In this document: positions 28,931-60,499 of the stretch, piece after piece
Numbering within the stretch: position 1 is the first letter of the stretch
Layout of the letters: each line of letters opens with the position of its first letter
DNA from: Pseudonocardia asaccharolytica DSM 44247 = NBRC 16224
Lineage (GTDB): Bacteria; Actinomycetota; Actinomycetes; Mycobacteriales; Pseudonocardiaceae
DNA: 64,000 nucleotides
NCBI RefSeq assembly: GCF_000423625.1
Contig: NZ_AUII01000013.1
Location: 1-64,000 of the forward strand
Direction of reading: 5' to 3'
Notes under the pieces: generated by a model
The model's input: only the letters and a program-made list of their open reading frames with translations
Told to the model about the DNA's origin: nothing
The model's database searches: none
Program-made: the position numbers and the translations under genes

Positions 28931-28946
28931 GCGCCGAGGACCGCCC

Positions 28947-29405: not shown

Positions 29406-29421
29406 GCCGAGAGAGGACCTC

Positions 29422-35306: not shown

Positions 35307-35546
35307 ATGAGGCGGTTCGTCGGATACCGGCCCGTCCCGCCCACGGACTACGTCGCGAAGGGACTCGCGAACGCGCCGGACGAGCCGCAGTACGAGGGCG
35401 TCGTGTTCACTGACGGCAGCGTGGCCTGCCGGTGGCGCACCGAACTCCGTTCGACCTCTGTGTGGACGTGCTGGGAGGACTTCTGCCGGGTGCACGGTCA
35501 CCCCGAGTACGGCACGCGGATCGAGTGGCTCGACGGCGAGGGGTGA
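35307..35546 (+). CDS. Small protein before the terminase genes
   Basis: A 79-residue protein (VGYRPVPPTDYVAKGLANAP, GVVFTDGSVACRWRTELRST, WTCWEDFCRVHGHPEYG). ATG 35307 follows GGGAGG. The VxFxDGSVxxRW...S...W segment recurs in small actinophage proteins of unknown function. It is the first gene of the late block. Confidence 0.65.
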   Translation: MRRFVGYRPVPPTDYVAKGLANAPDEPQYEGVVFTDGSVACRWRTELRSTSVWTCWEDFCRVHGHPEYGTRIEWLDGEG

Positions 35547-35549
35547 GGC

Positions 35550-35906: not shown

Positions 35907-36560
35907 GCGCGGCACCGTACTACGCCGATGCCCTGGTGACCCTCTACCTCGGGGACTGCCGCGAGATTCTGGACTGGCGCGCCGCTGACGTGCTCGTGAC
36001 CGACCCGCCGTACGGGGTGAGGTTTCGGTCTGGCATGCGGGGCGCATTCGGTGAGAGCCGGGTCGCGGGCGACCGGTCCACGCTGGCCCGGGACGCCGCG
36101 CTCGCGCTGTGGGGTGAGCGGCCCGCACTGGTGTTCGGGCACTGGCGCGCGCCTCGCCCCGCGCTGACGCGCGCCCTGCTCACCTGGGAGAAGGGTGGGC
36201 ACGTCGGGATGGGCGACCTGCGGATCCCGTGGAAGCCCAACACCGAGGAGATCTACGTCCTGGGCCACGGGTTCACCGGGCGTCGGGGAACGTCGGTGCT
36301 GCGCCACCTCGCGATCGCGGGCACGGTTGGCCAGCGCGGGCGAGGCACCCGCCACCACCCCACCGAGAAGCCCGTGTCGTTGCTCGCCGAGCTGCTCGAA
36401 AAGTGCCCGCCCGGAGTGATCGCCGATCCGTTCGCGGGCGCTGGGGAGCACCTTGCTGGCGGCGCGGCAGCTAGGCCGCCGCGCGATCGGCGTGGAGATC
36501 GAGGAACGGTACTGCGAGGTCATCGCGACCCGACTGGCCGGGATGGCGGCAGCATCGTGA
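35903..36560 (+). pseudogene. DNA (adenine-N6/cytosine-N4) methyltransferase, frameshifted near its end
   Basis: From ATG 35903 the frame gives a beta-class methyltransferase. It has ALVTLYLGDCREIL, the catalytic ADVLVTDPPYGVRF (DPPY) near residue 33, then HHPTEKPVSLLAELLEK and [10 protein letters not shown] (SAM-binding motif I). Right after it, at the GGGG run 36443-36446, the reading leaves the frame. With one G fewer it would continue [20 protein letters not shown] and [12 protein letters not shown] to the TGA at 36558-36560, the normal family ending. As written, the protein lacks its last SAM-fold helix and strand. It is either inactivated, sequenced wrongly, or corrected by slippage. 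Confidence 0.75.
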
Positions 36561-36655: not shown

Positions 36656-36831
36656 CGGGCCGTAGCGTGCCGAGCGTCGGCGAGCGGATCTGGTACGGCG
36701 TGCCGTTCGCGATGGCCGCGCTGCTGGTGGCCGCGCTGATCGTGGGCCCGGATCGGTTCGGCTGGCTGGCCCTCCTGCTGTCGCTGTCGGGCTCGCTGCT
36801 GTGGGTTCTGGCAGAGGCGGAGCGGCCGTGA
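36652..36831 (+). CDS. Small membrane protein with two helices
   Basis: A 59-residue protein with two hydrophobic segments (GVPFAMAALLVAALIVG and WLALLLSLSGSLLWVLAEAE). GTG 36652 overlaps the previous stop and its stop overlaps the terminase start. Function unknown. Confidence 0.5.
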   Translation: MTGRSVPSVGERIWYGVPFAMAALLVAALIVGPDRFGWLALLLSLSGSLLWVLAEAERP

Positions 36832-38488: not shown

Positions 38489-38700
38489 TGGGCCGCTATG
38501 ACCGGATCTGGGTCGACATCCCGGAGGGCACCCGGCTGAGCGAGGCGGAGTCCGCGTGGCTGGGTGAGGTGGTCGAGGGCCTGGCCGACGCGCTGGAGGG
38601 CCTGGAGGGGCCGCCGCCGAGGCCGTGCCGTCATTGGCGGTGCCGGGTGTATCGGACGGTGCTGCGCTGGGCGCTGCGCGGGCTCCCCGGGGGTAGCTGA
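38488..38700 (+). CDS. Small protein before the portal, unknown
   Basis: A 70-residue protein: an acidic helical first half (AESAWLGEVVEGLADALEGL) and a basic second half (CRHWRCRVYRTVLRWALRGL). TGATG overlaps join it to both neighbours. No family is recognised. Confidence 0.5.
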   Translation: MGRYDRIWVDIPEGTRLSEAESAWLGEVVEGLADALEGLEGPPPRPCRHWRCRVYRTVLRWALRGLPGGS

Positions 38701-39935
38701 TGGGGCTGGGGGCGCTGTTCCACCGCAACTTGGTCTACGAGGCCACCGACACCAAGACTGGCCAGACCGCGACGTACACGGTGGTCACCGACGGTGGCCC
38801 GGGGATGTACGCGGACTGGGCGCAGGACAGCTACCGGGGCGGCATGTCGATCCCGGGTGCGTGGCGGGCCGCGCGGCTGCAGGCCGGGATCCTCGGCGGG
38901 GTGCCCTGGCACGCCTACCAGGACCGCGGCGGCCGCGCGCAGCGGGTGAGGCCGAGCCCGGCGCTGGTCGAGCAGCCGGCACCCCCGGACGTGCGGGTGA
39001 CAACGTTCTCGTCGTGGCATCTGGATCTGCTGTGGCACGGCAACGCGCTCGGGCTGATCGTCGACCGGGGCCGCGACCGGGCGCCGACGGCGGTGGTGCC
39101 GGTTCCGGCCCGGTCGGTGTTCGTCCGCCGGATCGGCCAGTCGGACAACCAGGCGGCGGACTTCCCGGTCGGCGAGATCGTGTACTGGATCGGTGGCCGG
39201 TGGCGCTCGACGCGGGACGTCATCCACGTCAAGGGGCTGTGCGAGCCGGGTGCGCTGCGCGGCATGGGGATCCTGGAGGCGCATCTGGCGGGCGCGCTGG
39301 GGCTGTCGGTCGAGCTGGACAAGCAGGCGCGGGGCGTCTCCGAGCACGCGGTGCCGAGCGTGAAGATCAAGAGCGAGAACCCGGACCTGACACAGGTCGA
39401 GGCCGACGAGCTCAAGGCCAAGTGGATGGCCAGCGTGCGCACCAGAGTGCCCGTGGTGCTCAATCCGTCGACGGACGTCGAGCCGATCGCCTGGAACCCG
39501 ACCGAGACGCAGCTGTTGGAGGCGCGCAAGTTCAGCCTGCACGAGATCGCGCTGATCTTCGGGCTGGACCCGTCCTGGCTCGGCGCCGCGCAGGCCTCCC
39601 GGGTGTACGCGAATATCGAGCAAGAGGGCATCAACCTGGTCCGGTTCTCGCTGCAGGAGCACTTCGAGCGGTTCGAGCAGACCCTGTCCGCGCACCTGCC
39701 GGCCGGGATGTGGGTGAAGGCCGCGCTGGACGGGCTGCTGCGCGCGGACACGCTGGGCCGCTACAAGGCGCACGCCATCGGGATCCGCGAGGGCTTCCTG
39801 CAGCCCAACGAGGCCCGCGCGTTGGAGGACTGGGCGCCGATCCCGGGCCTGGATGAGCAATGGGCCGAGCACGTGTTCCGGGCGCCGACGGCCGGGCCGC
39901 CGCCGGCCGGGTCTGTTGAGGAGGGTCAACCGTGA
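38700..39935 (+). CDS. Portal protein, HK97 type
   Basis: A 411-residue portal. Typical segments: DSYRGGMSIPGAWRAARLQA (the start of the clip/stem domain), WHLDLLWHGNALGLIVDRGR, VIHVKGLCEPGALRGMGILE, DELKAKWMASVRTRVPVVLN and ALIFGLDPSWLGAAQASRVY, followed by NIEQEGINLVRFSLQEHFER. Twelve copies form the DNA entry ring and the site of terminase docking. The TGATG overlap with the preceding gene and a GTGA overlap with the protease place it firmly in the head operon. Confidence 0.9.
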   Translation: MGLGALFHRNLVYEATDTKTGQTATYTVVTDGGPGMYADWAQDSYRGGMSIPGAWRAARLQAGILGGVPWHAYQDRGGRAQRVRPSPALVEQPAPPDVRVTTFSSWHLDLLWHGNALGLIVDRGRDRAPTAVVPVPARSVFVRRIGQSDNQAADFPVGEIVYWIGGRWRSTRDVIHVKGLCEPGALRGMGILEAHLAGALGLSVELDKQARGVSEHAVPSVKIKSENPDLTQVEADELKAKWMASVRTRVPVVLNPSTDVEPIAWNPTETQLLEARKFSLHEIALIFGLDPSWLGAAQASRVYANIEQEGINLVRFSLQEHFERFEQTLSAHLPAGMWVKAALDGLLRADTLGRYKAHAIGIREGFLQPNEARALEDWAPIPGLDEQWAEHVFRAPTAGPPPAGSVEEGQP

Positions 39936-40495
39936 CCGAGCTGCGTCGGATGTTCAACGCCGCGCTGGAGATCCGCTCTCCAGCGCAGGGTGGCGACGGT
40001 CGCATCGTGGAGGGCATCGCGGTGCCCTACGGCGTGGCGATGCGCATCGACGCCGACCTCGTCGAGCAGTTCGCGCCCGGGGCGTTCGCGCACCAGATCG
40101 CGGCCGCGCACCGGGTCAGGTTCCGGCGAGATCACTGGCAGCTGATCGGGCGCACGCTCGAGCTGCGGGAGGACGCCGCGGGCCTGTGGGGTGCGTGGCA
40201 GGTGGCGCGCACCGCGGCGGGCGACGACACGCTGGCGTTGATCGAGGGTGGCGCGCTGACGGACCTGTCGATCGGGTTCCGGGAGCGGCAGAACCGGCGT
40301 CTGCCCGACGGCACGATCGAACGGGTGACCGCGGACCTGCGGGAGGTGTCCGTGGTGGACGAGGGCGCCTACGGCGAGCACGCCACGATCGCCGGCGTGC
40401 GCGCGGCCGCGGGCGACGGTGACGCGGTCGAGCGGGTGGGGCTGGCGGAGTGCGCGCAGATCCTCGGGCGGCTCCCCGTGCTCTCGTCGTCGTGA
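39932..40495 (+). CDS. Head maturation (prohead) protease
   Basis: A 187-residue HK97-type serine protease. EGIAVPYGVAMRIDADLVEQ and FAPGAFAHQI open the fold. VRFRRDHWQLIGRTLELRED carries the likely catalytic His, GALTDLSIGFRERQNRR the nucleophile Ser, and LREVSVVDEGAYGEHATI the end of the core. It removes the scaffolding part of the capsid protein. The gene starts in the portal stop. Confidence 0.85.
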   Translation: MTELRRMFNAALEIRSPAQGGDGRIVEGIAVPYGVAMRIDADLVEQFAPGAFAHQIAAAHRVRFRRDHWQLIGRTLELREDAAGLWGAWQVARTAAGDDTLALIEGGALTDLSIGFRERQNRRLPDGTIERVTADLREVSVVDEGAYGEHATIAGVRAAAGDGDAVERVGLAECAQILGRLPVLSSS

Positions 40496-40654
40496 TCGGC
40501 TAGCATCCGCAGGCGATACACCAATGCCGGCCCCTCGGCCCCGAGGTCCGCACCCCCGCCGCTCCCCCGTGATGCGGGCACCCGGACACGGTAGGCGGGC
40601 GACACCCCGGTCTCTAGGTGGACCTACACACCTATCGACTTGGGAGCACACGTC
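40496..40654. promoter_or_regulatory. Leader before the capsid gene with a hairpin
   Basis: This 159-base gap breaks an otherwise overlapping gene row. It contains CCTCGG-CC-CCGAGG at 40533-40546, able to form a short GC hairpin. An AT-richer stretch before GGGAG at 40642 is the ribosome binding site of the capsid gene. It may hold a processing site or promoter that raises capsid expression. Inferred from position. Confidence 0.35.
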
Positions 40655-42004
40655 GTGGCATCCCCCTATCTCGTGCGCAAGCGCGAGCAGTATCAGGAGA
40701 TCCGGACCGAGATCGAGGGCCTGCAGGCGCTCGCCGTGGCCGAGAACCGGGACCTCACCGAGGACGAGCTGGGCACGATCCGGACGCGGGCGGCGGACGC
40801 GGAGAAGCTGGCCGGCGAGATCGAGTCCCTGGCGGACTTCGAGCGCCGCTCGGCGAAGGTCGGTGTGGCGGCGGCGGAGATCGCCGCGGCCGGTGACGGC
40901 CCGCCGCCGGAGGCGACCGGGGACCACACCCGCGCAGCTGGCGGCGAGACGCGGTCGGGTGGCGCCGAGGCGCTGACCGGCACCGCGCAGACCCGCGACC
41001 GCGACCCCGGGCACTACCGCAAGGGCGGCGAGCACAGCTTCTTCGGCGACATGTTCCGGGCGAAGCAGGGCTACCAGGACGCCTCGCGGCGGCTCGCCGA
41101 GCATCACCGGGCGCTCGACACCCCGAACGAGGGTGTCGGGCTGGTCGCGCCACACTGGCTGGTGGAGGAGTACCAGACCATCGCCCGGCAGGGCCGCCGC
41201 GCATCCGGGGCGGTGCGGCAGGTGCCGCTCGGGGACGACCCGCGGCCGCTGACCCTGCCACGGCAGACCGCGGGTACCGACACGATCGTCGCCGAGCAGG
41301 CGTCGGAGAACACCGCGCCGACGTCGACCGACGCCTACGACAGCGACACGGTCACGGTCACCCCGAAGCCGACCACCGGGGCGCAGGTCTTCTCCCGGCA
41401 GATGCTGGACATGGCCAACCCGGCGATCGACGGGCTGATCTACGGCGACCTGCTGTCGGTGTACAACCAGAAGATCGAGGCCAAGGTGGTCGCGGCGATG
41501 GTCACCGCGGCCGGGACGGCGGTCACGACCTACGCCAACGAGGCCGCGTGGGACACCGCCGCGGGCAACCTCGCGGTCTCCGATGACCTGATCGACCTGG
41601 CCATCGCGGTCCGCAACGCCCGCAAGCTGCCCGCCGACATCCTGGTGCTGTCGGTGGCCCGCTACGGCGAGCTGCTCAAGCTCAAGGACTCCGCGGGTCG
41701 GCCGCTGATGCCGATGGACTCGGCCGGCCCGATGAACGTGGTCGGCACCGGCAGCGTCGCGGTGGACGGGCGGATCCACGGGCTCGGGGTGATCGCCTCG
41801 GACGGGGTCACGCAGTACCCGGAGAGCATCCTGGCCGCCCGCGCGGCGGACACGCTGCTGTTCGAGTCGGCGCTGATGCGGTTCCGCTACGAGGAGAAGT
41901 CAGGCCCCCATTCGATCGAGGTGGGGATCTGGGGCTACTCGGCGGTCCACGTGAAGTACAGCGGGGACTCGGTGAAGCGCAACGTCATCACCGCGGCGGT
42001 CTGA
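40655..42004 (+). CDS. Major capsid protein, HK97 fold
   Basis: A 449-residue capsid precursor. Residues 1-65 (YLVRKREQYQEIRTEIEGLQ and later TIRTRAADAEKLAGEIESLA) form the coiled-coil scaffold or delta domain, followed by a disordered linker. The shell domain begins near residue 125, with HWLVEEYQTIARQGRRASGA and GAQVFSRQMLDMANPAIDGL, then LPADILVLSVARYGELLKL and SVAVDGRIHGLGVIASDG. GTG 40655 is chosen for its spacing to GGGAG; TTG 40640 is possible. The protease upstream would cut in the linker. Confidence 0.9.
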   Translation: MASPYLVRKREQYQEIRTEIEGLQALAVAENRDLTEDELGTIRTRAADAEKLAGEIESLADFERRSAKVGVAAAEIAAAGDGPPPEATGDHTRAAGGETRSGGAEALTGTAQTRDRDPGHYRKGGEHSFFGDMFRAKQGYQDASRRLAEHHRALDTPNEGVGLVAPHWLVEEYQTIARQGRRASGAVRQVPLGDDPRPLTLPRQTAGTDTIVAEQASENTAPTSTDAYDSDTVTVTPKPTTGAQVFSRQMLDMANPAIDGLIYGDLLSVYNQKIEAKVVAAMVTAAGTAVTTYANEAAWDTAAGNLAVSDDLIDLAIAVRNARKLPADILVLSVARYGELLKLKDSAGRPLMPMDSAGPMNVVGTGSVAVDGRIHGLGVIASDGVTQYPESILAARAADTLLFESALMRFRYEEKSGPHSIEVGIWGYSAVHVKYSGDSVKRNVITAAV

Positions 42005-42955: not shown

Positions 42956-43366
42956 ATGGTTGCGCATAACCGCAAGCTCAAGCAGATCACATTTGATCTG
43001 GGCGGTGTCGAGTACCAGTGCCAGGTCGTGTCCTGGCAGATGGTGAACAACTCGGAGGACGGCGAGAAGCGGTACACCTACTGCCCGGACGGCGAGTTCC
43101 GTGAGGAGACCGACCCGGACTGGTCGCTCGAGCTGACGTTCTACAGCGACTGGCGCTCAGGTGGAATCTCTGACTTCCTGACGTTGCAGGACGGGCAGGA
43201 CGTCGCGTTTCAGCTGGACCACCACCCGGACATCCCGGCTGAGCACGTGCGGTGGACCGGCACGGTGACGGTCAAGGCCCCGAGCGTCGGCGGTGAGGTC
43301 CGCACCACGGAGCAGACCGAGGTCACCCTGCCCTGTGTCGGTAAGCCCGTCTACTCCCGACCCTGA
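42956..43366 (+). CDS. Major tail (tube) protein
   Basis: A 136-residue beta-rich protein: KQITFDLGGVEYQCQVVSWQ, DWSLELTFYSDWRSGGISDF, LDHHPDIPAEHVRWTGTVTV and VRTTEQTEVTLPCVGKPVY. This matches the tail tube type in which a beta sandwich ends in a strand TEVTLPxxGKPV. It starts one base after the tail terminator stop, in a local AT-rich patch (42915-42990) that may help expression. Confidence 0.8.
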   Translation: MVAHNRKLKQITFDLGGVEYQCQVVSWQMVNNSEDGEKRYTYCPDGEFREETDPDWSLELTFYSDWRSGGISDFLTLQDGQDVAFQLDHHPDIPAEHVRWTGTVTVKAPSVGGEVRTTEQTEVTLPCVGKPVYSRP

Positions 43367-45325: not shown

Positions 45326-48081
45326 CGCATCCCGGACTATCCGGGTGAGGTTTTGACGGCAGTGTCGACGGCCTGTCCCGGGCGGCGCGCAAGGCACAGG
45401 CCGACCTCGAGGCCTTCCGGGCGAAGAGCGAGGGGCTCGACAGGTCTCTGTCCAAGGCGTTCGTCGGGGCGGCGAAGGGCATCGCGCTGCTGGGTGCCGC
45501 CGGTGGCGGGGTCAACGCGCTGGTCGGGTTGACCGGGGCGATCGTGTCCATGTCGGGGGCGCTGCTCGCGGTGCCCGGTGCCGCGCTCGCCGGTGGCGCC
45601 GCTCTGGCGACGCTCAAGGTGGCCACCGCCGGGTTCGGCGACGCCCTGTCCAGCATGGACGACCCGGCCAAGTTCGCGGAGGCGATCGCCGATCTGGCGC
45701 CGGCCGCGCAGGAAACCGCGCGGGCGTTCCAGGCGCTGCGGCCGGAGGCGACCGCGCTGCGGCAGGAGGTGCAGGGCCGGTTTTTCGCCGGGTTCGCCGA
45801 CGACGTCGGTGAGCTCGGCGGCACCTACCTGCCGATCCTGAAGACCGGGATGTCCGGGGTCGCGGGCGAGATGAACGCGATGGGCCGGTCGGCGGCGAAG
45901 GCGCTGATGGCGCCGTCTGCGGTGAACGACGTCAACGAGGTTCTCGGCGGCACGCAGGATCTGCTGCGGGAGATGCGGCCGGCGCTGGGGAATGTGCTGT
46001 CCGGGTTGCTCGGGCTCGGCGGTGTGGGTGCGTCCAAGCTGGGTCGGCTCGGGTCGGCTGTGGATTCGGTCACCGGGAAGTTCAAGCGGTGGGTGGATGC
46101 CGGGGTGGAGTCCGGCCGGATCTCGCAGCTGATCGACCAGGGGGCGGAGTCGGCCAAGAAGTTCGGCACCGTGCTGGGGAACCTCGGCTCGATCGGGGGC
46201 ACCGTGTTCTCCGGGCTGTCGTCGGGGCAGGGTGACTTCCTCGACGGCATGGTCACCACGACGCAGGCCGTCGAAGACTTCTTCAAGTCCGTGGAGGGTC
46301 AGGAGGCGCTCAAGGCGCTCGGGGAGACCCTCAAGGTCGCCGGGGATGTGACCCGGGATGTGCTGATGGCGGCGCTGCGGGAGGCGGGGCCGCTGATCGT
46401 CGAGCTGGCGCCGGCGGCGCAGGCGGCGGCGAAGGCGTTCGGCGGGACGTTGGTGTCTGCGTTGCAGGTCGTCGGGCCGCTGCTGCAGGGCCTGGCGGGG
46501 TTCCTGTCGGAGCATAAGGAAGTCGTGGCGGCGGTGGTGCCGCTGCTGGTCGCCTACGCCGGCGGGTTGAAGGCGCTCAAGGTGGCGCAGTCGGTGGCGG
46601 GCTGGCTGGGTGGGGCGACGTCGGCGATCGACGGGCTGGGCCGGTCCGCGGATGGTGCGGCGAAGAAGACCGGGACCTTGAGGACCAAGCTGGGCGGGTT
46701 GAAGGGGCTTGGTGCGGCGGCGGCGGTCGCGGCGGTCGCGGTCGAGATGGACAAGGTCAACCTTGCCGCCGCCGGGGGGAACGCCGACAACCTGAGCTAC
46801 TGGGGTGATCAGCTACACGATTTCGTGGAGGCCGCGGGGCAGATCGCGTCCGGCGATATCGGCGGGATTTTCGACGAGATCGGCTGGGAATGGCAGCGGA
46901 TCGTCAACAACATTAATGGGAACCATCCGGATCCGATTAAGTTGCAGGCCGATGGCACGGCCGCGCAGGGCGATTTGGACCGGTTCATTACGCAGGTGAA
47001 CTCGGCTGCTCCGGAGGTGAACATCAATGGCAACTCGAACGGGGCCGGGTTCGCCCTGCGGCATATCCTCTCGGAGATCGCCGCCGGGAAAGAGTCGGTG
47101 CTCATTGAGGGCAAGACCGTCCCGGTGCAGGACGCGCTCGCCTATGTGCTGCGACTGATCGACGAGTCGGTTGGCACTGTGCCGATCGACGGGAACACCG
47201 AACCGGCCGGTGGCGCGCTGGCCACGCTGCTGAACCGGGCGGGAGCGTCGAAGGGTGTGGTCCCGATCGACGCGGACACGGCCGCCGCGCACGGGAAGAT
47301 CACTGCCGAGATCGCCTACGCGGACGGGTCGACGGGCACGGTGGCGATCGACGGGGACCCTCGGCTGGTGAACGGGAAGATCGTGCAGTCGGTGAAGTTC
47401 GCGGACGGATCGACCGGAACGATGGTGCTGGACGCGAACCCGGACCCCGCCACGGGGAAGATCAACGGCACGGTGCAGTACGGCGACCGGCAGCACGCGA
47501 CGATCACCTTGGACCCTCGGGACCTGGTCACTCCGGCGATCGACAACATCCCGCGCACCGGCACCACCGTGTGGACGATCAAGTACATCGACGAGGGCCG
47601 CCGCCCGGGTGGGTCCGCGCCCCGTCCGCAGGCGATGGGCGGGGTGCTGGCGCCGATGGCGTCCGGTGGCATGCTCAAGTACTTCAACGGCCACCGGCTG
47701 CGCCCCATGTCCGGCTCACGCGCCGACGTCGTCCCCCGCAACACCTGGCGGATCATCGGCGACAACATGCGTGTCCCCGAAGCGTTCATCCCCTTGGACC
47801 GCTCCGCCCGCTCCCTGTCGATCCTCGCCGAAGCCGCCAGACGGATGGGCATGCGGATCGCCCCGATGGCCGCCGGTGGGCTCAACCTGCCGGACTTCCT
47901 GGCCAGCCGGATCGGTGCCGCCGCCAGCTCGGGCGCCGCGCCGCGGGTCACGGTCGGCGGCACCAACATCACAGTGATCTTGGATGGGCAGCCGATCCGC
48001 GCGGTCATCCGCGAAGAGCTGGACCGGCGTGACCGCGAAACCCGGCGCACCGTCGGCGCCGGCGCCGGCGTCGGCTACTAG
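45318..48081 (+). CDS. Tape measure protein, with a +1 frameshift after codon 12
   Basis: From GTG 45318 (GAGGAG upstream) the frame codes MASASRTIRVRF and hits TGA at 45354-45356. One base on, the reading continues DGSVDGLSRAARKAQADLEA to the stop at 48081, about 920 residues in all. Features: an N-terminal coiled coil; Gly/Ala-rich hydrophobic segments (ALLAVPGAALAGGAALATLK; EVVAAVVPLLVAYAGGLKAL); a middle with repeated VPIDGNTEPAGGAL-like and YADGSTGTVAIDG-like strands (about 590-690); and a C-terminal globular part. It sets tail length and enters the host membrane. A shorter product from TTG 45529 is the alternative if no shift occurs. Confidence 0.8.
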
Positions 48082-50086: not shown

Positions 50087-52009
50087 ATGTACGAGGTGTC
50101 CGCGCGGTTCGCCGAGGTCGTCACCGGCTCGCACCGTGCCGTGTCCCGGGTGCAGGTCCTCACCGACACGCAGTTCGGGACGACCCCGACCGGCGGCATC
50201 GAGCTGCCGCTGCTCGGCGGGGACGTCAAGCTCGGCTCCACATCGGACGTCAAAGCCACACTGAGCGTGACCGTGCCCGGTGACTACTGGGAGCTGTGCC
50301 AGCCCTACGGCAACGAGCTGTTCGTCGAGCGCGGCATCGACTTCGGTGACGGCACCCGCGAGCTCGTGCCGCTCGGCTACTACCGCATCGACGAGGTCGT
50401 CCAGGACGACGCCCCGTGGGGGCCGATCCGCGTCACCTGCTCGGACCGGATCAAGCAGATGCAACAGAACCGGGTGCTGTACCCCTACCAGGTCCCGGCC
50501 GGTGGCCTGTCGCATCGGGTGATCTTCCACCGGCTCGTCAACGGCGACCCCGCCGTGTCCGGGCAGCCCTCGCAGGAGGGCTACGGAATGTACATCTACC
50601 ACTCGGTCCCGATCCACTGGCAGGGCTACGACCCGGACACGACGATCGTCCCGGCCGGGCAGGTCGTCGAGGACTCCACCTACGAGTTCCTGGCGAAGCT
50701 CGCCGCCGGGAAAGGCTGCGTGCTGATCTTCGACGAGGCCGGGGAGCTGTGGGTGACCCCGCGGGACCGCGACCCGTCCGAGCAGGCGGTGTACACGCTG
50801 CGCACCGGCCGCACCGGCACCCTGGTCCGCGCGTCGCGGTCGGTGTCCCGCGAGGGCGTGTACAACATCGTGTCGGCGTACGGGTCGGACTCTGCGCACC
50901 CGACCGGCTATCAGCTGGCGTACAACAACGACCGCAACAGCCCGCTGTTCTGGTCCGGGAAGTTCGGGGCCGCCCCCCGCTACTACGCGTCACCGGTGCT
51001 CAAGACGGCTGAGGCGGTCGAGCAAGCCGCCGCGACCGTGCTGGCCCGCTACACCGGGCTCCCCTCCAACGTCTCCGTCTGGAGCGTGCCGCACCCGGCG
51101 TTGCGGCCTCTCGACGTTGTGGACGCGGCGATCGGGACCACGCTGGAGCGGCACGTCATCGACAACCTGACCGTGCCGCTCGTCGGGGACGCCCCGCTCG
51201 AGGTGGTGACCCGTCAGCTGAATCCGGTGGGGTCGATCGAGACGCAGCCTGACCCGACGCCGACGCCGGACCCGGACCCCGGTGATCCGGGTAACCCCGG
51301 TAACCCGGACCCGGGTCCGGGTGGGCCGGAGGACGGCACGCAGGCCGCGGCGATTCTGGGCTGGGGCCCGGTTGTCGATGGTGACGAGTTCCAGTACACC
51401 GGCGCGCCGAGCTCGGCGAAGTGGGTGATGTATGACGGGCCGGGGCACGCGGGGAATGGTCGCCGTACGCCGTCGGCGTTTTCGGTCGCTAACGGCATCT
51501 TGACCTGCTACGGGAACGCGGGCGGGGATACCGGTGGGATGGCGTTCCGCCGCGACGAGTACGGCTGCCGCATCGAGGTGCGGATGCGCACGTATTCGAT
51601 TGATCCGGGTGCGGGCGGTAACCGCTACCACCCGGTCCTGATTACGTGGCCGACGTCGGACGAGTGGCCGGCCGGGGCGGAGTACGACTTCTTTGAGACA
51701 AACTGTGATTCCGGTAAGGCGGAGGCGTATCTGCACTATCCGAACCATCAGCCGATCGTGCAAGAGTACGCCTCCAAACCAATGGATATCCAGAATTGGC
51801 ATAATTACGCGTTCGAGTGGAATCCGTCGGCGCGCACATTGAAGAGCTGGATTGATGGCGAATACTTTTTCGAGTTCTCCGGGCGGGTCGCCGAAGCCCC
51901 CGGACCCATGCACCTCACTTTCCAGCTCGATGCGTTCTATCCGAACGGTTTCAACCCCGCCAAGATGGAGGCCATGTGGGTACGGATCTACAATCGGCCG
52001 AACGCATGA
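50087..52009 (+). CDS. Tail tip protein with C-terminal GH16-like domain
   Basis: A 640-residue protein. Residues 1-380 look like a siphophage tail-associated hub (DVKLGSTSDVKATLSVTVPG, LGYYRIDEVVQDDAPWGPIR, DSTYEFLAKLAAGKGCVLIF). A Pro/Asp/Gly linker (about 388-415) follows. Residues 425-640 are a concanavalin-like domain of glycoside hydrolase family 16 type, with GMAFRRDEYGCRIEVRMRTY and AGAEYDFFETNCDSGKAEAY, where E-x-D-x-x-E is the catalytic motif. It continues WHNYAFEWNPSARTLKSWID. The catalytic acids are present, so it may cut a beta-glucan or similar cell-wall polymer. The last 400 bases are AT-richer than the rest of the gene. Confidence 0.75.
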   Translation: MYEVSARFAEVVTGSHRAVSRVQVLTDTQFGTTPTGGIELPLLGGDVKLGSTSDVKATLSVTVPGDYWELCQPYGNELFVERGIDFGDGTRELVPLGYYRIDEVVQDDAPWGPIRVTCSDRIKQMQQNRVLYPYQVPAGGLSHRVIFHRLVNGDPAVSGQPSQEGYGMYIYHSVPIHWQGYDPDTTIVPAGQVVEDSTYEFLAKLAAGKGCVLIFDEAGELWVTPRDRDPSEQAVYTLRTGRTGTLVRASRSVSREGVYNIVSAYGSDSAHPTGYQLAYNNDRNSPLFWSGKFGAAPRYYASPVLKTAEAVEQAAATVLARYTGLPSNVSVWSVPHPALRPLDVVDAAIGTTLERHVIDNLTVPLVGDAPLEVVTRQLNPVGSIETQPDPTPTPDPDPGDPGNPGNPDPGPGGPEDGTQAAAILGWGPVVDGDEFQYTGAPSSAKWVMYDGPGHAGNGRRTPSAFSVANGILTCYGNAGGDTGGMAFRRDEYGCRIEVRMRTYSIDPGAGGNRYHPVLITWPTSDEWPAGAEYDFFETNCDSGKAEAYLHYPNHQPIVQEYASKPMDIQNWHNYAFEWNPSARTLKSWIDGEYFFEFSGRVAEAPGPMHLTFQLDAFYPNGFNPAKMEAMWVRIYNRPNA

Positions 52010-52638
52010 ACGCCCATGATGTGGCGATACCGGCGGTGTGCTTCGTCTTCCCACGCCTCACCGGCTCGGCGCTGGAAACCGTCCTTCCCCCGGTTGAACC
52101 GTGTGCGTTGCCGTCCCTGCGCTCGCAGCCTCTGGTCATGCAGGTGGTTCGCCATCGCCATCTTGCAGGCCAGGCAGCTCCGGCCCCCGGCTTTCGTCGT
52201 GGACGGCACGAGGTTAGGTGCCACCAGGTCGTGCCCGAGGGCACACGTCGCCTTGCGCGCTTGGACATGCGAGCCATTGCGCACCGAATCGTCAGTGTTC
52301 TCCGAGCGTGTGCCCCAGTACAGATTCTCGACGCAGTTGTTCGCTGGGTCGTCGTCGCGGTGAAGGGCGTTCGGTTTGTCATCTGGCGGCTCACCTACGA
52401 AGGCCAGCAGGACGAGGCGGTGAACCTTCGCGGTGGTGTGCACGTTGTCGTCGCCGACGAGGGTCACCCCGATGTACCCGTGAGGGATGATCGTTGCACC
52501 TTTGAGTATCCGTCCTGGCCGCCAGGTCCGGGTTCCCCACCGATTGCCCGAGTAGAAGCCGAGACTGCGCACTCGGCCTTTCGAGCTGACTTCGTATCGG
52601 TCCTTGTATCCCGGGATAGGACGCCATCGCTCAACCAC
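51988..52638 (-). CDS. NUMOD4-motif HNH homing endonuclease
   Basis: A 216-residue endonuclease on the strand opposite to all tail genes. The NUMOD4 motif WRPIPGYKDRYEVSSKGRVR opens it, followed by LKGATIIPHGYIGVTLVG and the HNH part HRLVLLAFVGEPPDDKPNAL, HRDDDPANNCVENLYWGTRS. A Cys-rich tail has CALGHDLVAPN and SCLACKMAMANHLHDQ. It overlaps the end of the tail tip gene by 22 bases. It is a selfish homing gene inserted between two tail genes. The local base composition is less GC-rich, supporting a separate origin. Confidence 0.85.
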   Translation of the reverse strand: MVERWRPIPGYKDRYEVSSKGRVRSLGFYSGNRWGTRTWRPGRILKGATIIPHGYIGVTLVGDDNVHTTAKVHRLVLLAFVGEPPDDKPNALHRDDDPANNCVENLYWGTRSENTDDSVRNGSHVQARKATCALGHDLVAPNLVPSTTKAGGRSCLACKMAMANHLHDQRLRAQGRQRTRFNRGKDGFQRRAGEAWEDEAHRRYRHIMGVHAFGRL

Positions 52639-55047: not shown

Positions 55048-55299
55048 ATGGGTGAGCATTCCTGGGTGGGCGACGACGCCCCCGACCACGCCCCGCCGGC
55101 GGTGGTGGAGGCCAAGGTGTGGGCGTCGACGCTGGTCACGCTCGCCGCGAGCGTGGGGGTGGCGCTGCTCAACGCGGTGCAGGACCAGCCGACGTTGCTG
55201 GGCGGGCTCCCGCCGTGGCTACAGACGCTGCTGCTGGCGCTGGTGCCGCCACTGCTGGCGTTCGTGGCCGGCTACGCCAAGCGCTCCAACCGCGTCTGA
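55048..55299 (+). CDS. Holin
   Basis: An 83-residue protein with an N-terminal soluble part and two transmembrane helices (VWASTLVTLAASVGVALLNA and LPPWLQTLLLALVPPLLAFV), ending in basic YAKRSNRV. This is the holin pattern, and it follows the lysin by 5 bases (AGAGGTGATCG before the ATG). It is the last gene of the late operon, followed by a strong terminator. Confidence 0.75.
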   Translation: MGEHSWVGDDAPDHAPPAVVEAKVWASTLVTLAASVGVALLNAVQDQPTLLGGLPPWLQTLLLALVPPLLAFVAGYAKRSNRV

Positions 55300-55330
55300 G
55301 AGCCTGAGTCGGTCCGCTCCCCAGCAGGGC

Positions 55331-55373
55331 ACAGCGCCCCTCACCCGCTCCCCCCAACGGCGAGGGGCGCTGT
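55331..55373 (+). terminator. Terminator at the end of the late operon
   Basis: ACAGCGCCCCTC (55331-55342) and GAGGGGCGCTGT (55362-55373) form a perfect 12-bp stem with a 19-base loop. No long T run follows, as is usual in Actinobacteria. It lies between the convergent holin and DUF732-like genes and would stop both transcripts. Confidence 0.8.
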
Positions 55374-55379
55374 TCCGTG

Positions 55380-56099
55380 TCAACTGGCCTTCGACCAGGT
55401 GCAGCCGCCGTTGGTCTTGAAGTACTTCCCATTCTTCAACGTCACGACGCCGGGCCCGGAGATGTTGTCGTTGTGGTCGATCCCCGACAGGCTCCCGCTG
55501 CCGTCCGAGACCTCGAAGTAGCACGAGCCCCCCACTCCCGGGCCCGGCGTCTTGTACTTGCCCGGCGCCATGTCTGGGCCGACCTCGTAGATTCCGTCCG
55601 AGACCGACGTCCGCGGACCCGCCGCGGCCGCAGCGGTCGGCTCCGGCGTCCACGCGACCGCCGGAGCCGTCGAGAAGGACCTCTCCGGGCAGTACGAGCG
55701 CTCCGCAGCAGCCACCAGAACCTCGGCCACCTGTGGCCCGAACTTCGTCGTCCCCATCGCCCCGACGAGGACCTCACGAGTGACCCCAGGGGTACCGATC
55801 GCATCGCACATGCGCCGCCCGAGCTCGATGATCTCGCTATGCGGCATGTCCGTGCTCAGCCCCGGCGTGTCGAGCACGTCCCGGAGGAACCGCTGCCCCG
55901 GGTCGGTCGGCGTCCACGGCGGCGGGAACGTCGGCGACGCCGCCGGTGAGGCCGATGGCGCCGCGGCACCGGTGGTCCGCAGCAGCGTGCCCGCGGTCGC
56001 CGCCGCGGCGAGCACAGCGATGACGGCGAGCCCGATCAGCCACGGCTTGCGACGCGCCGGGCGGCGCGGCTGGTCGGGGGCAGGGTCAGACGACATCAT
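55380..56099 (-). CDS. DUF732-type secreted/membrane-anchored protein (cargo gene)
   Basis: A 239-residue protein with one N-terminal membrane helix (PWLIGLAVIAVLAAAATAGT) and a Pro/Ser/Ala linker. A DUF732-like helical domain follows (DPGQRFLRDVLDTPGLSTDM, IIELGRRMCDAIGTPGVTRE, VLVAAAERSYCPER with two Cys). The C-terminal beta domain is DGIYEVGPDMAPGKYKTPGP, SCYFEVSDGSGSLSG and GVVTLKNGKYFKTNGGCTW. Both domains are known from secreted proteins of mycobacteria and relatives. It is expressed against the late genes after the terminator, so it probably acts in the lysogen, for example in exclusion or altered surface (inference). Confidence 0.7.
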   Translation of the reverse strand: MMSSDPAPDQPRRPARRKPWLIGLAVIAVLAAAATAGTLLRTTGAAAPSASPAASPTFPPPWTPTDPGQRFLRDVLDTPGLSTDMPHSEIIELGRRMCDAIGTPGVTREVLVGAMGTTKFGPQVAEVLVAAAERSYCPERSFSTAPAVAWTPEPTAAAAAGPRTSVSDGIYEVGPDMAPGKYKTPGPGVGGSCYFEVSDGSGSLSGIDHNDNISGPGVVTLKNGKYFKTNGGCTWSKAS

Positions 56100-56176
56100 G
56101 GCGCTCCGAACGGTTCAGGGCGGGTATCTGATCGTCGCGCGTCGGGTATGTCGTGTTACGACCCGTGACCGGATCG

Positions 56177-56389
56177 TCACCAGGGGGGCCGCACCGCCTC
56201 GTACGCGCGCCGGCCCCACCGGACCATCTGCCCGTCGCCTCCACACCGCCCGCAGTCGCGATAGCTGCGGGTGATCGGCGACCGCCACCGGCCGCTGCCC
56301 GAACACCAGTGGCAGCGTCGGTACGGCCAGACCACGCACTCGATCGCGTACAGGCCGAGCGCGACGACGGCGACGACCCACCACGTCAC
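56177..56389 (-). CDS. Small DnaJ-type zinc-finger membrane protein
   Basis: A 70-residue protein: one transmembrane helix (VVAVVALGLYAIECVVW) followed by two DnaJ-like CxxCxGxG repeats, CHWCSGSG and CGRCGGDG. GTG 56389 is used; TTG 56398 is possible. Such helix-plus-zinc-ribbon proteins accompany FtsK-like genes in actinomycete plasmids and integrative elements. It lies 64 bases after the FtsK-like gene on the same strand. Confidence 0.6.
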   Translation of the reverse strand: MTWWVVAVVALGLYAIECVVWPYRRCHWCSGSGRWRSPITRSYRDCGRCGGDGQMVRWGRRAYEAVRPPW

Positions 56390-56453
56390 GACGGGCAACC
56401 GAGGTTGACGCCCGGCAACCCGCGCCGGCAACCGCGTGACCTGCGGATACGGC

Positions 56454-58610
56454 TCATTCGTCCTCCAGGTTGCCGGGATCGCCCGCGTTGCCGTCGTCGT
56501 GTTTCCGCAGGTCGGCGGCCCGGACCCCGCTCGTCGTGCGCCCGGCAACCTTGACCTTTCGGACCTGCACGCCGCGGTTGCGCAGCCGCTTGCCCAGCTC
56601 GTCAACGTCCAGGCCGGCGTACTCCGGGCGCAGCTCGCCGAGCCACTCGACCAGCTCGACGAGGTGCGCGGTCGGTCGGCTGCGGTCGGCGAGCACGCGC
56701 TCGACATCGGCCACCTCGTCGAGCACCACGAACACCGGCTCGTCGTCAGCGGCGGCGCCGGTGAGCATCCCGACGCCTGCGCGGAGCGCCCGCGCCCGTA
56801 GCGCCACCTCGTTCGCGGCCGGCGCGTCCAGCCCGTACACCGAGCGCACGATGCGCGGGGCCGCCCCGTCGGCCTTGAGGTAGCCGATGCCCTTGTCGTC
56901 GAGGTCGAACATCGTGGCGTCGATGCCGCGCTTGTAGCTCCCGGTGCCGAGGATCCGGTCGTTGGGTTCGTGCCCCTCCAGCTTCATCGCGAATCGGATC
57001 ACGGCGTTGTTCGCGATCGAGGTGGGGATCGTCGCGTCGTTCACCTGCTGCGTGGCGAGCAGCACGATGATGCCGAGCGCCGGGCCCAGCTTGACCAGCT
57101 CGGTGACGCCGGACCGCAGTTCCTGCCGGATGGCCTTGTGGTCCCTGTTGCCGTCGTCGCCGTAGGAGAAGTACGACTGCGTCTCGTCGATGCCTACGAC
57201 GATCGGTCCGAGGTCGAGGTCGGGTCGGGCGCGCACAAGCTCGGCGGTCACCTTCGACTCCGGGCACTGGTCGAACGGCAGCGCGTCGATGATATCCGCG
57301 CGGCGGCCCAGCTCCTTGCGGAGCCAGCGCACCGTGTCGAGGACCTGCGCGATCTGCTCGGGCCGGTCCGGGCGGGCGCCCCGCAGGTAGACGTGGGCGA
57401 AGTGCGCGCACGCCGACAGGTCGCCGGTGCCCTTCCCGTCGAGCGCGATGACCTTGGCGGTGACGTCGAGGCCAGCGATGAGCAGCAACTGGCGCAGCAC
57501 GAACGTCTTTCCGATGCGCGGCACCGCGCCAATGATCATGTTGCTGTAGGCGAGGGTGACTCCGACCCACGCGCCACGCTGGTCGGTGAACGCCGGGACG
57601 GGCGCGAACAGGTCGACCTCGCCGCGGCGACGCAGCGGCCACGGCTCCTGCGTCGCCGACGCAAGCGGTTGGTCCGACACGAACAGGGCCAAGTGTCCGG
57701 GGTGGCGCGTGCCGACGGCGGGCCAGACCGTGCCGAGCTCGCGGCGCAGGGCGGCGGCGAACTCCTCCCGCTTGCCCTGCACGAACGAGGCGGGCACGGC
57801 GGGCGGCAGCTCCAGGTCGACCTGCACGCCGGGGCCGTGGCGGTGCGGGTCGGTGAGCAGGCGGATGGAGTCGGGTTCGCGCATCTTCGAGTTGCCCAGC
57901 GTGCACAGCGCCTCGGTGACCATCGGCGCCGTCAGCGGCGGCACGCGGCCACCCTCCGCGACCCCGGGCAGGGTGACGAGTGGGCGGGCGCGCGGGCGGC
58001 CCACCCAGCCGAGCACCAGCACCGCCACCGCCCCGGCCAGCCACCACAGCCATCCGGGCGGCACCGGGACCGTGGTCGCCAGCCACGGCGTCGCCAGGTA
58101 GGCCAGCAGCGCCAGTCCACCGGCGGCGACCAGCTCGGCGAGCCCGCGCCCGGGGATCAGCTTCACCGTCCACACGAACACCAGCCCGGCGAGCAGCACC
58201 CCGAGCGCGCGCGGCGCGGTCCAGGCCAGCACCACTCCCAACACCGCCAGGACGGCCGTGCCGTTGACCATCAGCCGGGCGGTCAGGTTCGCGGAGCGGG
58301 CCCGGGAGACGCGCTCGTAGTCGGCGGACTCGCGGGCGCCGGCGTGGTGGGCGCGCAGCTGCGCCGTGTCGTGGTCGCGCAGGTAGCGGGCCCACGCCGC
58401 GGTGATGCGGGCGAGCCCGCGGGGGGACCAGGCGAGCAGCAGCGCCACGCTGGCCGGCACCTGGCGCGCCACCCGCCATGCCGTCCAGGCCTGGCGGCGC
58501 GTCACCACGGCGGCGCGGACCCGCACGTTGGTCAGGGTCGCGGTGACCCGCTGCCGGGCCGGTGGTCGCACGGTCACCAGCTCGGACTCGGGGCGGCGCG
58601 CCACGGTCAC
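56454..58610 (-). CDS. FtsK/SpoIIIE-type DNA translocase (TraSA/TraB-like)
   Basis: A 718-residue protein. The N-terminal part has two to four hydrophobic segments (LMVNGTAVLAVLGVVLAWTA; GWLWWLAGAVAVLVLGWVG). The motor domain has Walker A in MIIGAVPRIGKTFVLRQLLL, Walker B in LGPIVVGIDETQSYFSYGDD, and the FtsK sensor region VLLATQQVNDATIPTSIANN, then RFAMKLEGHEPNDRILGTGS. The C-terminal 130 residues hold a winged-helix-like part (WLGELRPEYAGLDVDELGKR). In AICEs a protein of this build moves double-stranded DNA between cells. GTG 58610 overlaps the upstream stop; GTG 58619 is an alternative. Confidence 0.9.
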   Translation of the reverse strand: MTVARRPESELVTVRPPARQRVTATLTNVRVRAAVVTRRQAWTAWRVARQVPASVALLLAWSPRGLARITAAWARYLRDHDTAQLRAHHAGARESADYERVSRARSANLTARLMVNGTAVLAVLGVVLAWTAPRALGVLLAGLVFVWTVKLIPGRGLAELVAAGGLALLAYLATPWLATTVPVPPGWLWWLAGAVAVLVLGWVGRPRARPLVTLPGVAEGGRVPPLTAPMVTEALCTLGNSKMREPDSIRLLTDPHRHGPGVQVDLELPPAVPASFVQGKREEFAAALRRELGTVWPAVGTRHPGHLALFVSDQPLASATQEPWPLRRRGEVDLFAPVPAFTDQRGAWVGVTLAYSNMIIGAVPRIGKTFVLRQLLLIAGLDVTAKVIALDGKGTGDLSACAHFAHVYLRGARPDRPEQIAQVLDTVRWLRKELGRRADIIDALPFDQCPESKVTAELVRARPDLDLGPIVVGIDETQSYFSYGDDGNRDHKAIRQELRSGVTELVKLGPALGIIVLLATQQVNDATIPTSIANNAVIRFAMKLEGHEPNDRILGTGSYKRGIDATMFDLDDKGIGYLKADGAAPRIVRSVYGLDAPAANEVALRARALRAGVGMLTGAAADDEPVFVVLDEVADVERVLADRSRPTAHLVELVEWLGELRPEYAGLDVDELGKRLRNRGVQVRKVKVAGRTTSGVRAADLRKHDDGNAGDPGNLEDE

Positions 58611-58924
58611 CGCACCCACCCCCGCCCGACCGGCGGGAGAACCTCACCGTCGACCACCACCGGCGGGCGCACGGCCCCGACCGGGAGCGACCCGGCGGCA
58701 TGGACGTGCCGGACGGTCACCACATGCTCGTGGCGCACCACCACCACGACCGGTCCGCCGGGCGCGACGGGCGCGGCCTGCCGGTCGTGGTCCCGGACCG
58801 CGAGCCCGGTCCCGACCGGTCCGCGGTGCGGGTGCCGGCACCGCCCCCGGCCCCAGATCAGCGCCACCGGCACGGCGAGCGACGCCCACCCGCCGAACGC
58901 GGCGAGGACCTCACCCGGGGTCAC
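58607..58924 (-). CDS. Small membrane-linked protein of the transfer operon
   Basis: A 105-residue protein: an N-terminal hydrophobic stretch (EVLAAFGGWASLAVPVALIW) and a Val/His-rich beta part (GGPVVVVVRHEHVVTVRHVH). GTG 58924 overlaps the stop of the DUF2637 gene and its stop overlaps the FtsK-like start. It is thus locked into the operon. The family is not recognised. Confidence 0.55.
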   Translation of the reverse strand: MTPGEVLAAFGGWASLAVPVALIWGRGRCRHPHRGPVGTGLAVRDHDRQAAPVAPGGPVVVVVRHEHVVTVRHVHAAGSLPVGAVRPPVVVDGEVLPPVGRGWVR

Positions 58925-59565
58925 GACGCCACCCGGTCGCGCAGGCGGGCGAGCAGCTGCCGCGCCTCGTGCTCGGTGATCTCCAGCTCGCGCGCGATAC
59001 GCCGCCGGCCGGCACCCTCGGCCACCAGCGCGGCCGCGCGCCCGTCCACGTCGTCTCCCGCCTGCTCGCCCGCGGGTGGCACCACCGCCAGCGGCCGGGC
59101 GGTCGCGGGCGCGACGTCGAGCGTGGCCCCCGGCTCGGCGGTCTCCTCGGCGGCGGCGACGTCCACCGGCCGGGGCGACCCGCGCCCGACCAGCACCGCC
59201 AGGTGCACCGTCCCGCCGACCACGGCGGGCGGGATCGCCCCCACCACCACGGCCACCCACCACGGCGGCACCACTGCGGCGGCGTGCATGCCCTGGACGG
59301 CCGCGTTGCCGGCCACCGTGCACGCCAGCAGCGCCCACGTCATGCCGCGGGCGACCCGGGCGGCATCGGCCGGTGCGCGCCGCGACAGCCACGTCGCGCA
59401 CGACACCGCGGCCCCGGCGTCCACCGCGATCGGCAGCAGCCACGCCAGGCGCGCCGGGATGCCTGCCGCTACGGCGAGGTCCCGCAGCGCGTGGAACGAC
59501 AGCACGGCAGCCGCGGCGAGCACCACGGCCAGCCCCGCCCACATCACCACGTCCCGGCGAGTCAC
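58921..59565 (-). CDS. DUF2637 (Spd-like) membrane protein
   Basis: A 214-residue protein with four transmembrane helices: VVMWAGLAVVLAAAAVLSFH, ARLAWLLPIAVDAGAAVSCA, GMTWALLACTVAGNAAVQGM and WWVAVVVGAIPPAVVGGTVH. This is the DUF2637 pattern. The tail is a short HTH (GRRRIARELEITEHEARQLL). DUF2637 proteins are typical of conjugative plasmids and AICEs of actinomycetes, where Spd proteins help spread of the DNA in the mycelium. Coupled by GTGA overlaps on both sides. Confidence 0.8.
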   Translation of the reverse strand: MTRRDVVMWAGLAVVLAAAAVLSFHALRDLAVAAGIPARLAWLLPIAVDAGAAVSCATWLSRRAPADAARVARGMTWALLACTVAGNAAVQGMHAAAVVPPWWVAVVVGAIPPAVVGGTVHLAVLVGRGSPRPVDVAAAEETAEPGATLDVAPATARPLAVVPPAGEQAGDDVDGRAAALVAEGAGRRRIARELEITEHEARQLLARLRDRVAS

Positions 59566-59789
59566 CGGATCTCCAAGGTCAAGAGCGCGGCGACGGGGAT
59601 GCGGAGCTGCTCGCCGTGCCCGTTGGTGAGAACGAGGGCACCGCCGTGGACCTCCACGTCCAGATACCAGGCGGACATGCGGTAGGTGCGCACGATGCCG
59701 CCGGCGGCGCGGTAGTGGATGAGCGCGACCCGCTCCGACACGGCGCCACCGACACGGCGGGCGGCGCGGAAGAGGCGGCGGATCACCAC
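59562..59789 (-). CDS. Small protein of the transfer operon, unknown
   Basis: A 75-residue protein: basic first helix (VIRRLFRAARRVGGAVSERV) and a beta part (TYRMSAWYLDVEVHGGALVL, IPVAALLTLEIR). GTG or ATG start, stop in overlap with the DUF2637 gene. No family is recognised. Confidence 0.5.
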   Translation of the reverse strand: MVIRRLFRAARRVGGAVSERVALIHYRAAGGIVRTYRMSAWYLDVEVHGGALVLTNGHGEQLRIPVAALLTLEIR

Positions 59790-59863
59790 ACACCCCCGCC
59801 AGGGTGGCCGTGCGGGCGGGTGGGCGGTTCGGTCCTACGTGCGACCGGCGGGCGGTCCTGCAT
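59783..59863 (-). CDS. Possible very small protein
   Basis: A 26-residue basic frame (MQDRPPVARRTEPPTRPHGH) bridging the winged-helix gene and the next gene, with overlaps on both sides. It could be a coupling frame only. Low support. Confidence 0.25.
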   Translation of the reverse strand: MQDRPPVARRTEPPTRPHGHPGGGVW

Positions 59864-60119
59864 CGTCGCGCTCCCTGCCCCGCCGCAGATCGGTGCGGCG
59901 GCCCTGCCCGGGTAGGCGGGACCACGCGGCGCGGACCTCGACGGGGCGGTACAGGAGCGCGCCGTGCGGGCCGTAGGTCGCGGTGAGGTGGCCGCGGTCA
60001 CGCAGGACGCGGAGGCGATACCGTGCGGAGTCCAGGCCTACGCCCATCTCCCGCGCGACGTCCTCGACGCCCCAGAGCGTCTCGCTCACCGGGCGGCTCG
60101 CACGGCCAAACCTTCGCAT
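59835..60119 (-). CDS. Winged-helix DNA-binding protein, first gene of the transfer operon
   Basis: About 94 residues from ATG 60119 (103 if GTG 60146 is used): ETLWGVEDVAREMGVGLDSA, then RYRLRVLRDRGHLTATYGPH and GALLYRPVEVRAAW. This is a winged helix of the MarR/ArsR-like or plasmid-regulator size. It is the first gene inward from attR and probably controls its own operon. Some elements carry a second Xis-like protein here, so a role in excision cannot be excluded. Confidence 0.6.
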   Translation of the reverse strand: MRRFGRASRPVSETLWGVEDVAREMGVGLDSARYRLRVLRDRGHLTATYGPHGALLYRPVEVRAAWSRLPGQGRRTDLRRGRERDDAGPPAGRT

Positions 60120-60146
60120 AGCCTGTGTGAAAGTTGCAACGGGCAC

Positions 60147-60276
60147 ACCGCGGACGGTAGCGGCGCGGCGCGGCGCGGCTGGGGACGCACGGGGAGCAAC
60201 ACCTACCTTCGCGCAAGATCAGCGCGGCATTTCCGCGGCATGATCTTGGTTCGGCGGTCGGGAAACCGCGTCTGAC
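60147..60276. promoter_or_regulatory. Promoter region of the transfer operon next to attR
   Basis: About 130 bases between attR and the winged-helix gene without a gene. It has a GCGGC/GGCGC-rich run near 60165-60180 and CGCGGCATTTCCGCGGCATG near 60220-60243 with local symmetry. It should hold the minus-strand promoter and the integrase arm sites. Sites themselves not identified. Confidence 0.35.
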
Positions 60277-60312
60277 GTGGGGCGGGTGGGGCTCGAACCC
60301 ACGACCTGACGG
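60277..60312. repeat. attR, 36-bp core
   Basis: Identical to 19346-19381. It forms the 3' half of the intact tRNA-Met gene (60279-60352) and two bases beyond it. The element supplied these bases and restored the tRNA after integration. Confidence 0.9.
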
Positions 60313-60352
60313 ATTATGAGTCCGCTGCTCTGACCAGCTGAGCTACCGCCCC
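60279..60352 (-). tRNA. tRNA-Met (anticodon CAT)
   Basis: On the minus strand the 74 bases fold as a complete tRNA: acceptor stem GGGGCGG pairing with CCGCCCC, D arm GCTCAGCTGGTCAGAGC, and anticodon loop ACTCATAAT with CAT. The T arm is GTGGGTTCGAGCCCCAC. CCA is not encoded. The elongator Met identity is likely; an Ile2 tRNA with modified CAT is the alternative. It is the integration site of the element, which replaced its 3' half. Confidence 0.95.
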
Positions 60353-60499
60353 GGTGGGGCGAGCCTAGCGACCCGCCAGATCGGCGAAACAGACTCACCC
60401 GTCGAAAGCCCCGACGCGACCTTGTCGTCCGGCTCGATCCTGGGTCGCGCCACGGGCTTGCCGAGTCGCGGCGATCCGACCACCTGGCGCACCGGTTTA

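Follow-up and report, generated by a model that had tools for sequence, protein, structure and literature searches.

A tailed prophage of Pseudonocardia asaccharolytica carries a plasmid-type transfer operon and may be a phage/AICE hybrid

The first 64,000 nucleotides of contig NZ_AUII01000013.1 of Pseudonocardia asaccharolytica DSM 44247 (the window) contain a prophage of about 41 kb, in a host genome of 5.05 Mb, which is bounded by an exact 36-bp direct repeat, the attachment (att) site, lying within the 3' end of a tRNA-Met gene. Between its att sites the prophage encodes the terminase, portal, capsid, tail and integrase proteins that define a temperate tailed phage. It also has two defining features of actinomycete integrative and conjugative elements (AICEs), namely an integrase with its att site and a replication protein of the RepSA, RepAM or Prim-Pol type (here Prim-Pol), and a minus-strand block of genes between the tail and putative lysis genes and attR that is laid out like a plasmid transfer operon. 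At the centre of this block is a translocase which, judged by its sequence, is of the TraB type, the plasmid and AICE Tra kind, and not the usual phage FtsK. We consider it rather probable that a tailed temperate phage and an AICE are combined in this prophage, and that its TraB-type pump would carry the phage circle from one hyphal compartment to the next or into a touching cell.

Read from attR inwards, the block comprises genes for a putative DNA-binding protein, a 75-aa protein, a DUF2637 protein, a 105-aa protein, the 718-aa translocase, an open reading frame (ORF) of 23 codons and a 70-aa CxxCxG protein (Table 1). From the 75-aa gene onward, starts and stops overlap by 4 nt (GTGA or ATGA) at five junctions. 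An earlier note on this DNA had described a minus-strand operon in this place, with overlapping starts nearly throughout, an FtsK/SpoIIIE translocase and a small membrane protein, and all of this was borne out; the genes it named are present, and its list lacked the 75-aa and 105-aa genes. Its winged-helix gene, read as 59835-60146, has HTH_20 at E 0.1 as its one family match. Its DUF2637 assignment stands, and the four helices given to that protein are less certain: hydropathy shows hydrophobic stretches at about 6-48 and 93-122, and the structure model was poor (pLDDT, predicted local distance difference test, 48) and was set aside. The lysis terminator it reported was not recovered: 55200-60450 holds no T-tailed terminator, only an inverted repeat at 55325-55379, and no sigma-70-like promoter. 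Between this inverted repeat and the block sits a DUF732 gene. Judging from the coordinates, excision would bring the integrase to within about 0.3 kb of the block, with attP between them and both on one strand; the Pseudonocardia alni element pPaSha2 has the same arrangement, and in the related locus L009 the two lie on opposite strands.

The translocase has hydrophobic stretches near its N-terminus (about 113-204), an FtsK motor (222-619) and a small C-terminal domain. The Walker A (GAVPRIGKT) and Walker B (VGIDE) motifs are intact, as had been claimed, and G367, K368, D475 and E476 are invariant across 18 aligned translocases, this one included. TraB-type translocases read DNA repeats with a C-terminal winged helix; in the protein studied here the structure model gives helices plus strands for residues 632-705, and two relatives match the C-terminal part of DUF3631 at scores under the cut-off of that family. 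A search at E 1e-5 matched 57 plasmid records and none of 50,697 phage records. In the phylogeny, a step that the earlier note had proposed, the translocase sits with plasmid and AICE Tra proteins and is split from host and mycobacteriophage FtsK at 100/100. An identity as host-type or usual phage-type FtsK is thus disfavoured by both search and tree. On the Tra side it belongs to a group of 12 that a 98/100 branch separates from the remaining Tra rows in the careful tree and that forms one clade, nested in the AICE family, in the quick tree. The translocases of a same-genus genome (G006) and of a contig from a Pseudonocardia metagenome-assembled genome (L077) are identical.

The block recurs in other phage-like elements, which the earlier note had suggested looking for. 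In G024, a genome of the same genus, relatives of the terminase, portal, protease and capsid proteins (64, 52, 56 and 52% identical) are encoded in an element with a serine integrase and its own Prim-Pol gene; to their right lie, on the minus strand, a gene for DUF2637 and one for a translocase with 55% identity. Because the flanks of this element are two parts of one ChlI-type gene (PF13541 profile positions 1-65 on the left and 61-119 on the right), its virion genes and block form part of a single insertion; a search of its ends gave no att repeat of more than 9 bp. A 27-kb circular record of P. broussonetiae and pPaSha2, a 42-kb circle, also combine virion genes with DUF2637 and translocase genes. 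In pPaSha2 the portal is in two pieces and the block lies between integrase and holin, just as it lies between attP and the putative lysis genes in the window. Counting the window's prophage, four elements with defined boundaries carry the block next to virion genes. Besides the window's own, 18 IMG/VR records contain a relative; a terminase was found in 11 of them, a portal in seven and DUF2637 in ten, and the terminase matches are split in two in G071 and G077, partial in G064 and G068, and carry an in-frame stop in G069, G070 and G071. Among the 18, G060 (locus L053) is the G024 element itself, since the two translocases are the same. The IMG/VR contig L033, with a translocase 100% identical to that of the prophage, is very probably the same prophage as in the window.

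In 9 members of the window's group of 12, a DUF2637 gene lies less than 1 kb upstream of the translocase (L036 and L038 stand in for L053 and L015 in this count). In the other three (L016, L056 and L076) the translocase frame reaches the contig end, and L056 has a profile match downstream instead. Because the pairing recurs in other elements, it is more than chance. From sequenced genomes, 80 loci were retained out of 301 relatives, with stretches of up to 10 kb on either side. An integrase profile matches in 73 of them and a terminase or portal in none, within stretches of that length and with profiles that miss distant phages; these loci resemble the usual settings of AICEs. With a profile built from the 70-aa CxxCxG protein, 83 ORFs (79 distinct) were collected, in 63 of the 80 loci among others and often close 3' of the translocase gene, and this protein may be an undescribed companion of AICE-type transfer operons.

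A TraB-style candidate cis region, absent from the earlier note, lies behind the translocase gene. The 138 bp around the translocase stop hold four of the seven GGTTGCCG copies of the prophage. A scan of pSVH1 for clusters of 8-mers finds GACCCGGA, which we take to be the repeat unit recognised by TraB of that plasmid, four times at the traB 3' end, the same place as the cluster in the window. Over the 3' regions of 129 family members, repeated 8-mers amount to 4.26, against 3.27 in shuffles (Wilcoxon 6e-19) and 3.77 in same-locus random windows (1.4e-7). The motif TGACCTGC occurs in 26 of 98 family 3' regions, against 3.3 in random windows, and its carriers include pSVH1, pSG5, the G024 prophage and the window, where it reads TGACCTGCGG. 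It is also found in 7 of 8 further Streptomyces plasmid regions, a partly post hoc test, since TGACCTGC was chosen after the strict motif GACCTGCG had appeared in only 2 of the 8, and one in which two regions (L173 and L175) have 72% of their 12-mers in common. Behind AICE-like translocase genes (e.g., L117, L125 and L154) there are lineage-specific repeats, with CCGCTAGC in 37 of 98 loci and, among CTAG-type 8-mers common 3' of family translocases, TAGACCTA in 38 of 98 against 0.7 expected; 32 of these 38 belong to the 80 loci retained from sequenced genomes. Such repeat units could be a catalogue of clt (cis-acting locus of transfer) sites. The strongest repeat of the prophage, about seventeen 12-bp tandem units at 31810-32018, lies within a 237-aa reading frame and encodes a QL-rich repeat; it was taken as a coding repeat and rejected as clt.

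Table 1. Coordinates of the prophage and its transfer block in the window
Feature	Position	Strand	Evidence or remark
attL core	19346-19381		36-bp exact direct repeat
Tyrosine integrase, adjoins attL	19510-20604	-	PF00589 62.2 bits
Prim-Pol/D5 primase, early region, AICE-type replication protein	26135-28651	+	PF09250 54.6 bits (cut-off 22.8); PF08706 96 bits
Terminase large subunit	36828-38297	+	phrog_9 8.5e-74
Portal	38700-39935	+	phrog_12 4.5e-46
Head maturation protease	39932-40495	+	phrog_80 3.5e-22
Major capsid protein	40640-42004	+	phrog_2263 3.6e-29
Major tail protein	42956-43366	+	phrog_4574 1.5e-14
Tape measure protein	45529-48081	+	phrog_6090 2.5e-53
Tail protein	50087-52009	+	phrog_1887 2.3e-30
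Putative lysis genes, 295 aa and 86 aa	54155-55299	+	named by position only
DUF732/Rv1352-like protein, on the block's strand	55380-56099	-	PF05305 1e-8; NF053833 4e-17
70-aa protein, one hydrophobic segment and two CxxCxG motifs	56177-56389	-	start overlaps stop of 23-codon ORF
clt-like repeat cluster	56413-56550		GGTTGCCG copies at 56413, 56426, 56468 and 56543, one inverted
Motif TGACCTGCGG, directly behind translocase stop	56437-56446	+	conserved
TraB-type FtsK/SpoIIIE translocase (assigned by sequence), 718 aa	56454-58610	-
105-aa protein, slot of pSVH1 108-aa ORF	58607-58924	-	no Pfam family; pSVH1 gene order
DUF2637 membrane protein, C-terminal helical region, SpdB2 slot	58921-59565	-	PF10935 4e-10; alignment; hydropathy
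75-aa protein	59562-59789	-	no family above noise
Putative small DNA-binding protein, first block gene	59835-60119	-	start uncertain, 60089-60146; HTH_20 E 0.1 only
attR core	60277-60312		second 36-bp copy, the 3' part of tRNA-Met
tRNA-Met, host attachment gene	60277-60352	-	attR inside

Several further observations concern the virion region and other elements. A NUMOD4/HNH homing endonuclease gene (51988-52638, minus strand) overlaps the end of the tail protein gene. The last 220 residues of this tail protein resemble, by eye, a glycan-binding or GH16-like domain; in a Pfam search its sole match was DUF5047 at residues 48-151. The 295-aa putative lysis ORF matched nothing in Pfam and PHROG searches. 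Locus L038 (G018:C124, about 20671-36000) is an element of about 16 kb that encodes an integrase, an AAA protein, DUF2637, a prohead protease (PF04586) and a translocase with about 49% identity to that of the window. The profiles find no terminase or portal in it, and it may be a satellite of phages that has acquired this transfer block too. In Geobacillus phage PK5.2 and Staphylococcus phage MVC_VPHSA2 (L170 and L171), an FtsK-like gene adjoins a gene for a replication/relaxation protein, possibly a parallel in Firmicutes.

Comparison with known systems helps to place these features. TraB hexamers direct the transfer of double-stranded plasmids and recognise 8-bp repeats at clt; their interaction partner SpdB2 is a membrane protein that forms oligomers and binds DNA (PMC4170104). 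The transfer regions of pSVH1 and pSG5 share with the window the series small ORF, membrane-protein (SpdB2) slot, small ORF, translocase and TGACCTGC region. They differ in a remote translocase, in an SpdB2 that is not DUF2637 and in another repeat unit; unlike them, the window has no match to the GntR profile. To equate DUF2637 with SpdB2 by Pfam was rejected, as pSVH1 SpdB2 has no PF10935 match, and the earlier pairing 'DUF2637/Spd' does not correspond to a single Pfam family. The slot ahead of the translocase is nonetheless taken by DUF2637 genes in 7 of the 8 Streptomyces plasmids inspected. AICEs (PMC3218068) resemble the prophage in the end-located integrase, Prim-Pol, which is among the replication types used to search for them, a probable FtsK-type Tra and integration at a tRNA 3' end; the prophage differs in being 41 kb long, in encoding terminase, portal, capsid and tail proteins, and in a Tra that scores below the PF01580 cut-off. 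With phage-plasmids (PMC10879196), a likeness lies in the two Pseudonocardia relatives that are circular records with virion genes, and the difference is the double-strand DNA pump together with virion genes here. Actinophage FtsK-like genes, such as that of Mycobacterium phage Redno2, have the FtsK motor in common with the translocase, but Redno2 FtsK falls with host FtsK in the tree and has no DUF2637 annotated beside it.

The hybrid reading is based on the presence of integrase, Prim-Pol, TraB-type transfer operon and siphovirus head and tail genes within one att pair, with closely similar gene combinations repeated in related Pseudonocardia elements. After excision, the translocase would bind circular double-stranded phage DNA at the repeats behind its own gene, and as a hexamer anchored in the membrane it would pump the circle across, aided by the DUF2637 membrane protein. 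The likeliest barrier would be the cross-wall between hyphal compartments, as in SpdB2/TraB-like spreading, and the second candidate the wall between touching cells, as in conjugation. The phage could then colonise the mycelium without lysis and still exit as virions. The operon layout is like that of TraB/SpdB2 systems, with DUF2637 in the SpdB2 slot, and we infer this pumping, and hence DNA transfer between compartments or cells. The earlier note was partly supported: its anatomy and the kind of translocase are right, those of its proposed checks that can be computed turned out as it expected, and its idea of dual transfer is now better founded, though still one that we infer.

A number of results weigh against this interpretation. 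PF01580 matches the translocase at E 4.5e-4 but, with 20.2 bits, falls short of its curated threshold of 24, although tree and fold agree with such a Tra and that of L011, an AICE-like plasmid, reaches only 11.3 bits. The resemblance to pSVH1 TraB is remote (E about 1e-23 by tblastn), and neither SpdB2 of pSVH1 nor its pSG5 counterpart matches PF10935 at E 1. In the careful tree the outgroup attaches inside the group of 12 near L009, and a single clade is not shown. The GGTTGCCG cluster is modest, with three direct copies, and is equalled in 11 of 60 random windows drawn from the same short locus, which includes the cluster itself; GGTTGCCG was not seen as the top repeat in the window's relatives, and only 5 of the 11 listed rows of the window's group exceed their own random windows in 3' repeats. 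GACCTGC is missing in L009, pPaSha2, L043, L063, L068 and L016.

It is unlikely, though worth serious thought, that the translocase works only inside the cell, helping phage or prophage DNA past closing septa or segregating it in the manner of FtsK/SpoIIIE, with which it shares the motor fold. Spreading and stability cannot be told apart in mycelia, and plasmid SLP2 was less stable with a mutant spdB2 (PMC4170104); the position of the translocase on the plasmid/AICE Tra side of the tree, and its company of DUF2637 and a plasmid-type cis motif, argue for the other side. Rather improbable is a passenger block, acquired when the phage recombined with an AICE that used the same tRNA site, and now decaying or neutral. 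In favour of this are the tRNA att sites and Prim-Pol genes common to phages and AICEs (PMC3218068). The 'phage' label, too, changes at least 7 times on the quick tree (starred branches) and, among the 10 phage rows that are not part of the window's group, at least 3 times on the careful tree; but the reading frames of the block are open, its catalytic residues invariant, its union with virion genes repeated in the four bounded elements and the group of 12 set apart at 98/100. Accessory genes often sit between lysis genes and att, and the block lies there, on the same strand as the integrase and repressor genes, as it would if it formed a membrane complex that excludes other phages or plasmids at entry or establishment; this is very unlikely, with no PADLOC model matching any of seven block proteins at E 0.01 and a conserved DNA motif behind the motor gene that better fits DNA handling. 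A role for the translocase as packaging motor, or its being a variant form of the common phage FtsK, is scarcely credible despite the match to phrog_1358, 'FtsK/SpoIIIE-like protein', at 7.8e-14, since a normal terminase is present and Redno2 FtsK groups far away.

The hybrid of tailed phage and AICE thus remains the favoured reading. More tentatively, we regard as quite possible a lineage of actinomycete viruses that would travel by two routes, as virions and as naked double-stranded circles pumped by their own TraB-type machine through hyphal cross-walls or from cell to touching cell. Both tailed phages and transfer of the AICE type are known, and what appears to be new, within the literature searched, is their recurrent union in one element: among the matches listed, no virion-encoding element with an AICE-type Tra operon was found in a search that covered subscription journals and preprints thinly. 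The way in which an element moves is what sets phages and conjugative elements apart in classification, and virion genes together with a TraB-type operon in one element blur this line. The union hints at what a plasmid pump may be good for in a phage whose host grows as a mycelium, and TGACCTGC, shared by conjugative plasmids and phages, is a candidate cis motif of TraB-type transfer.

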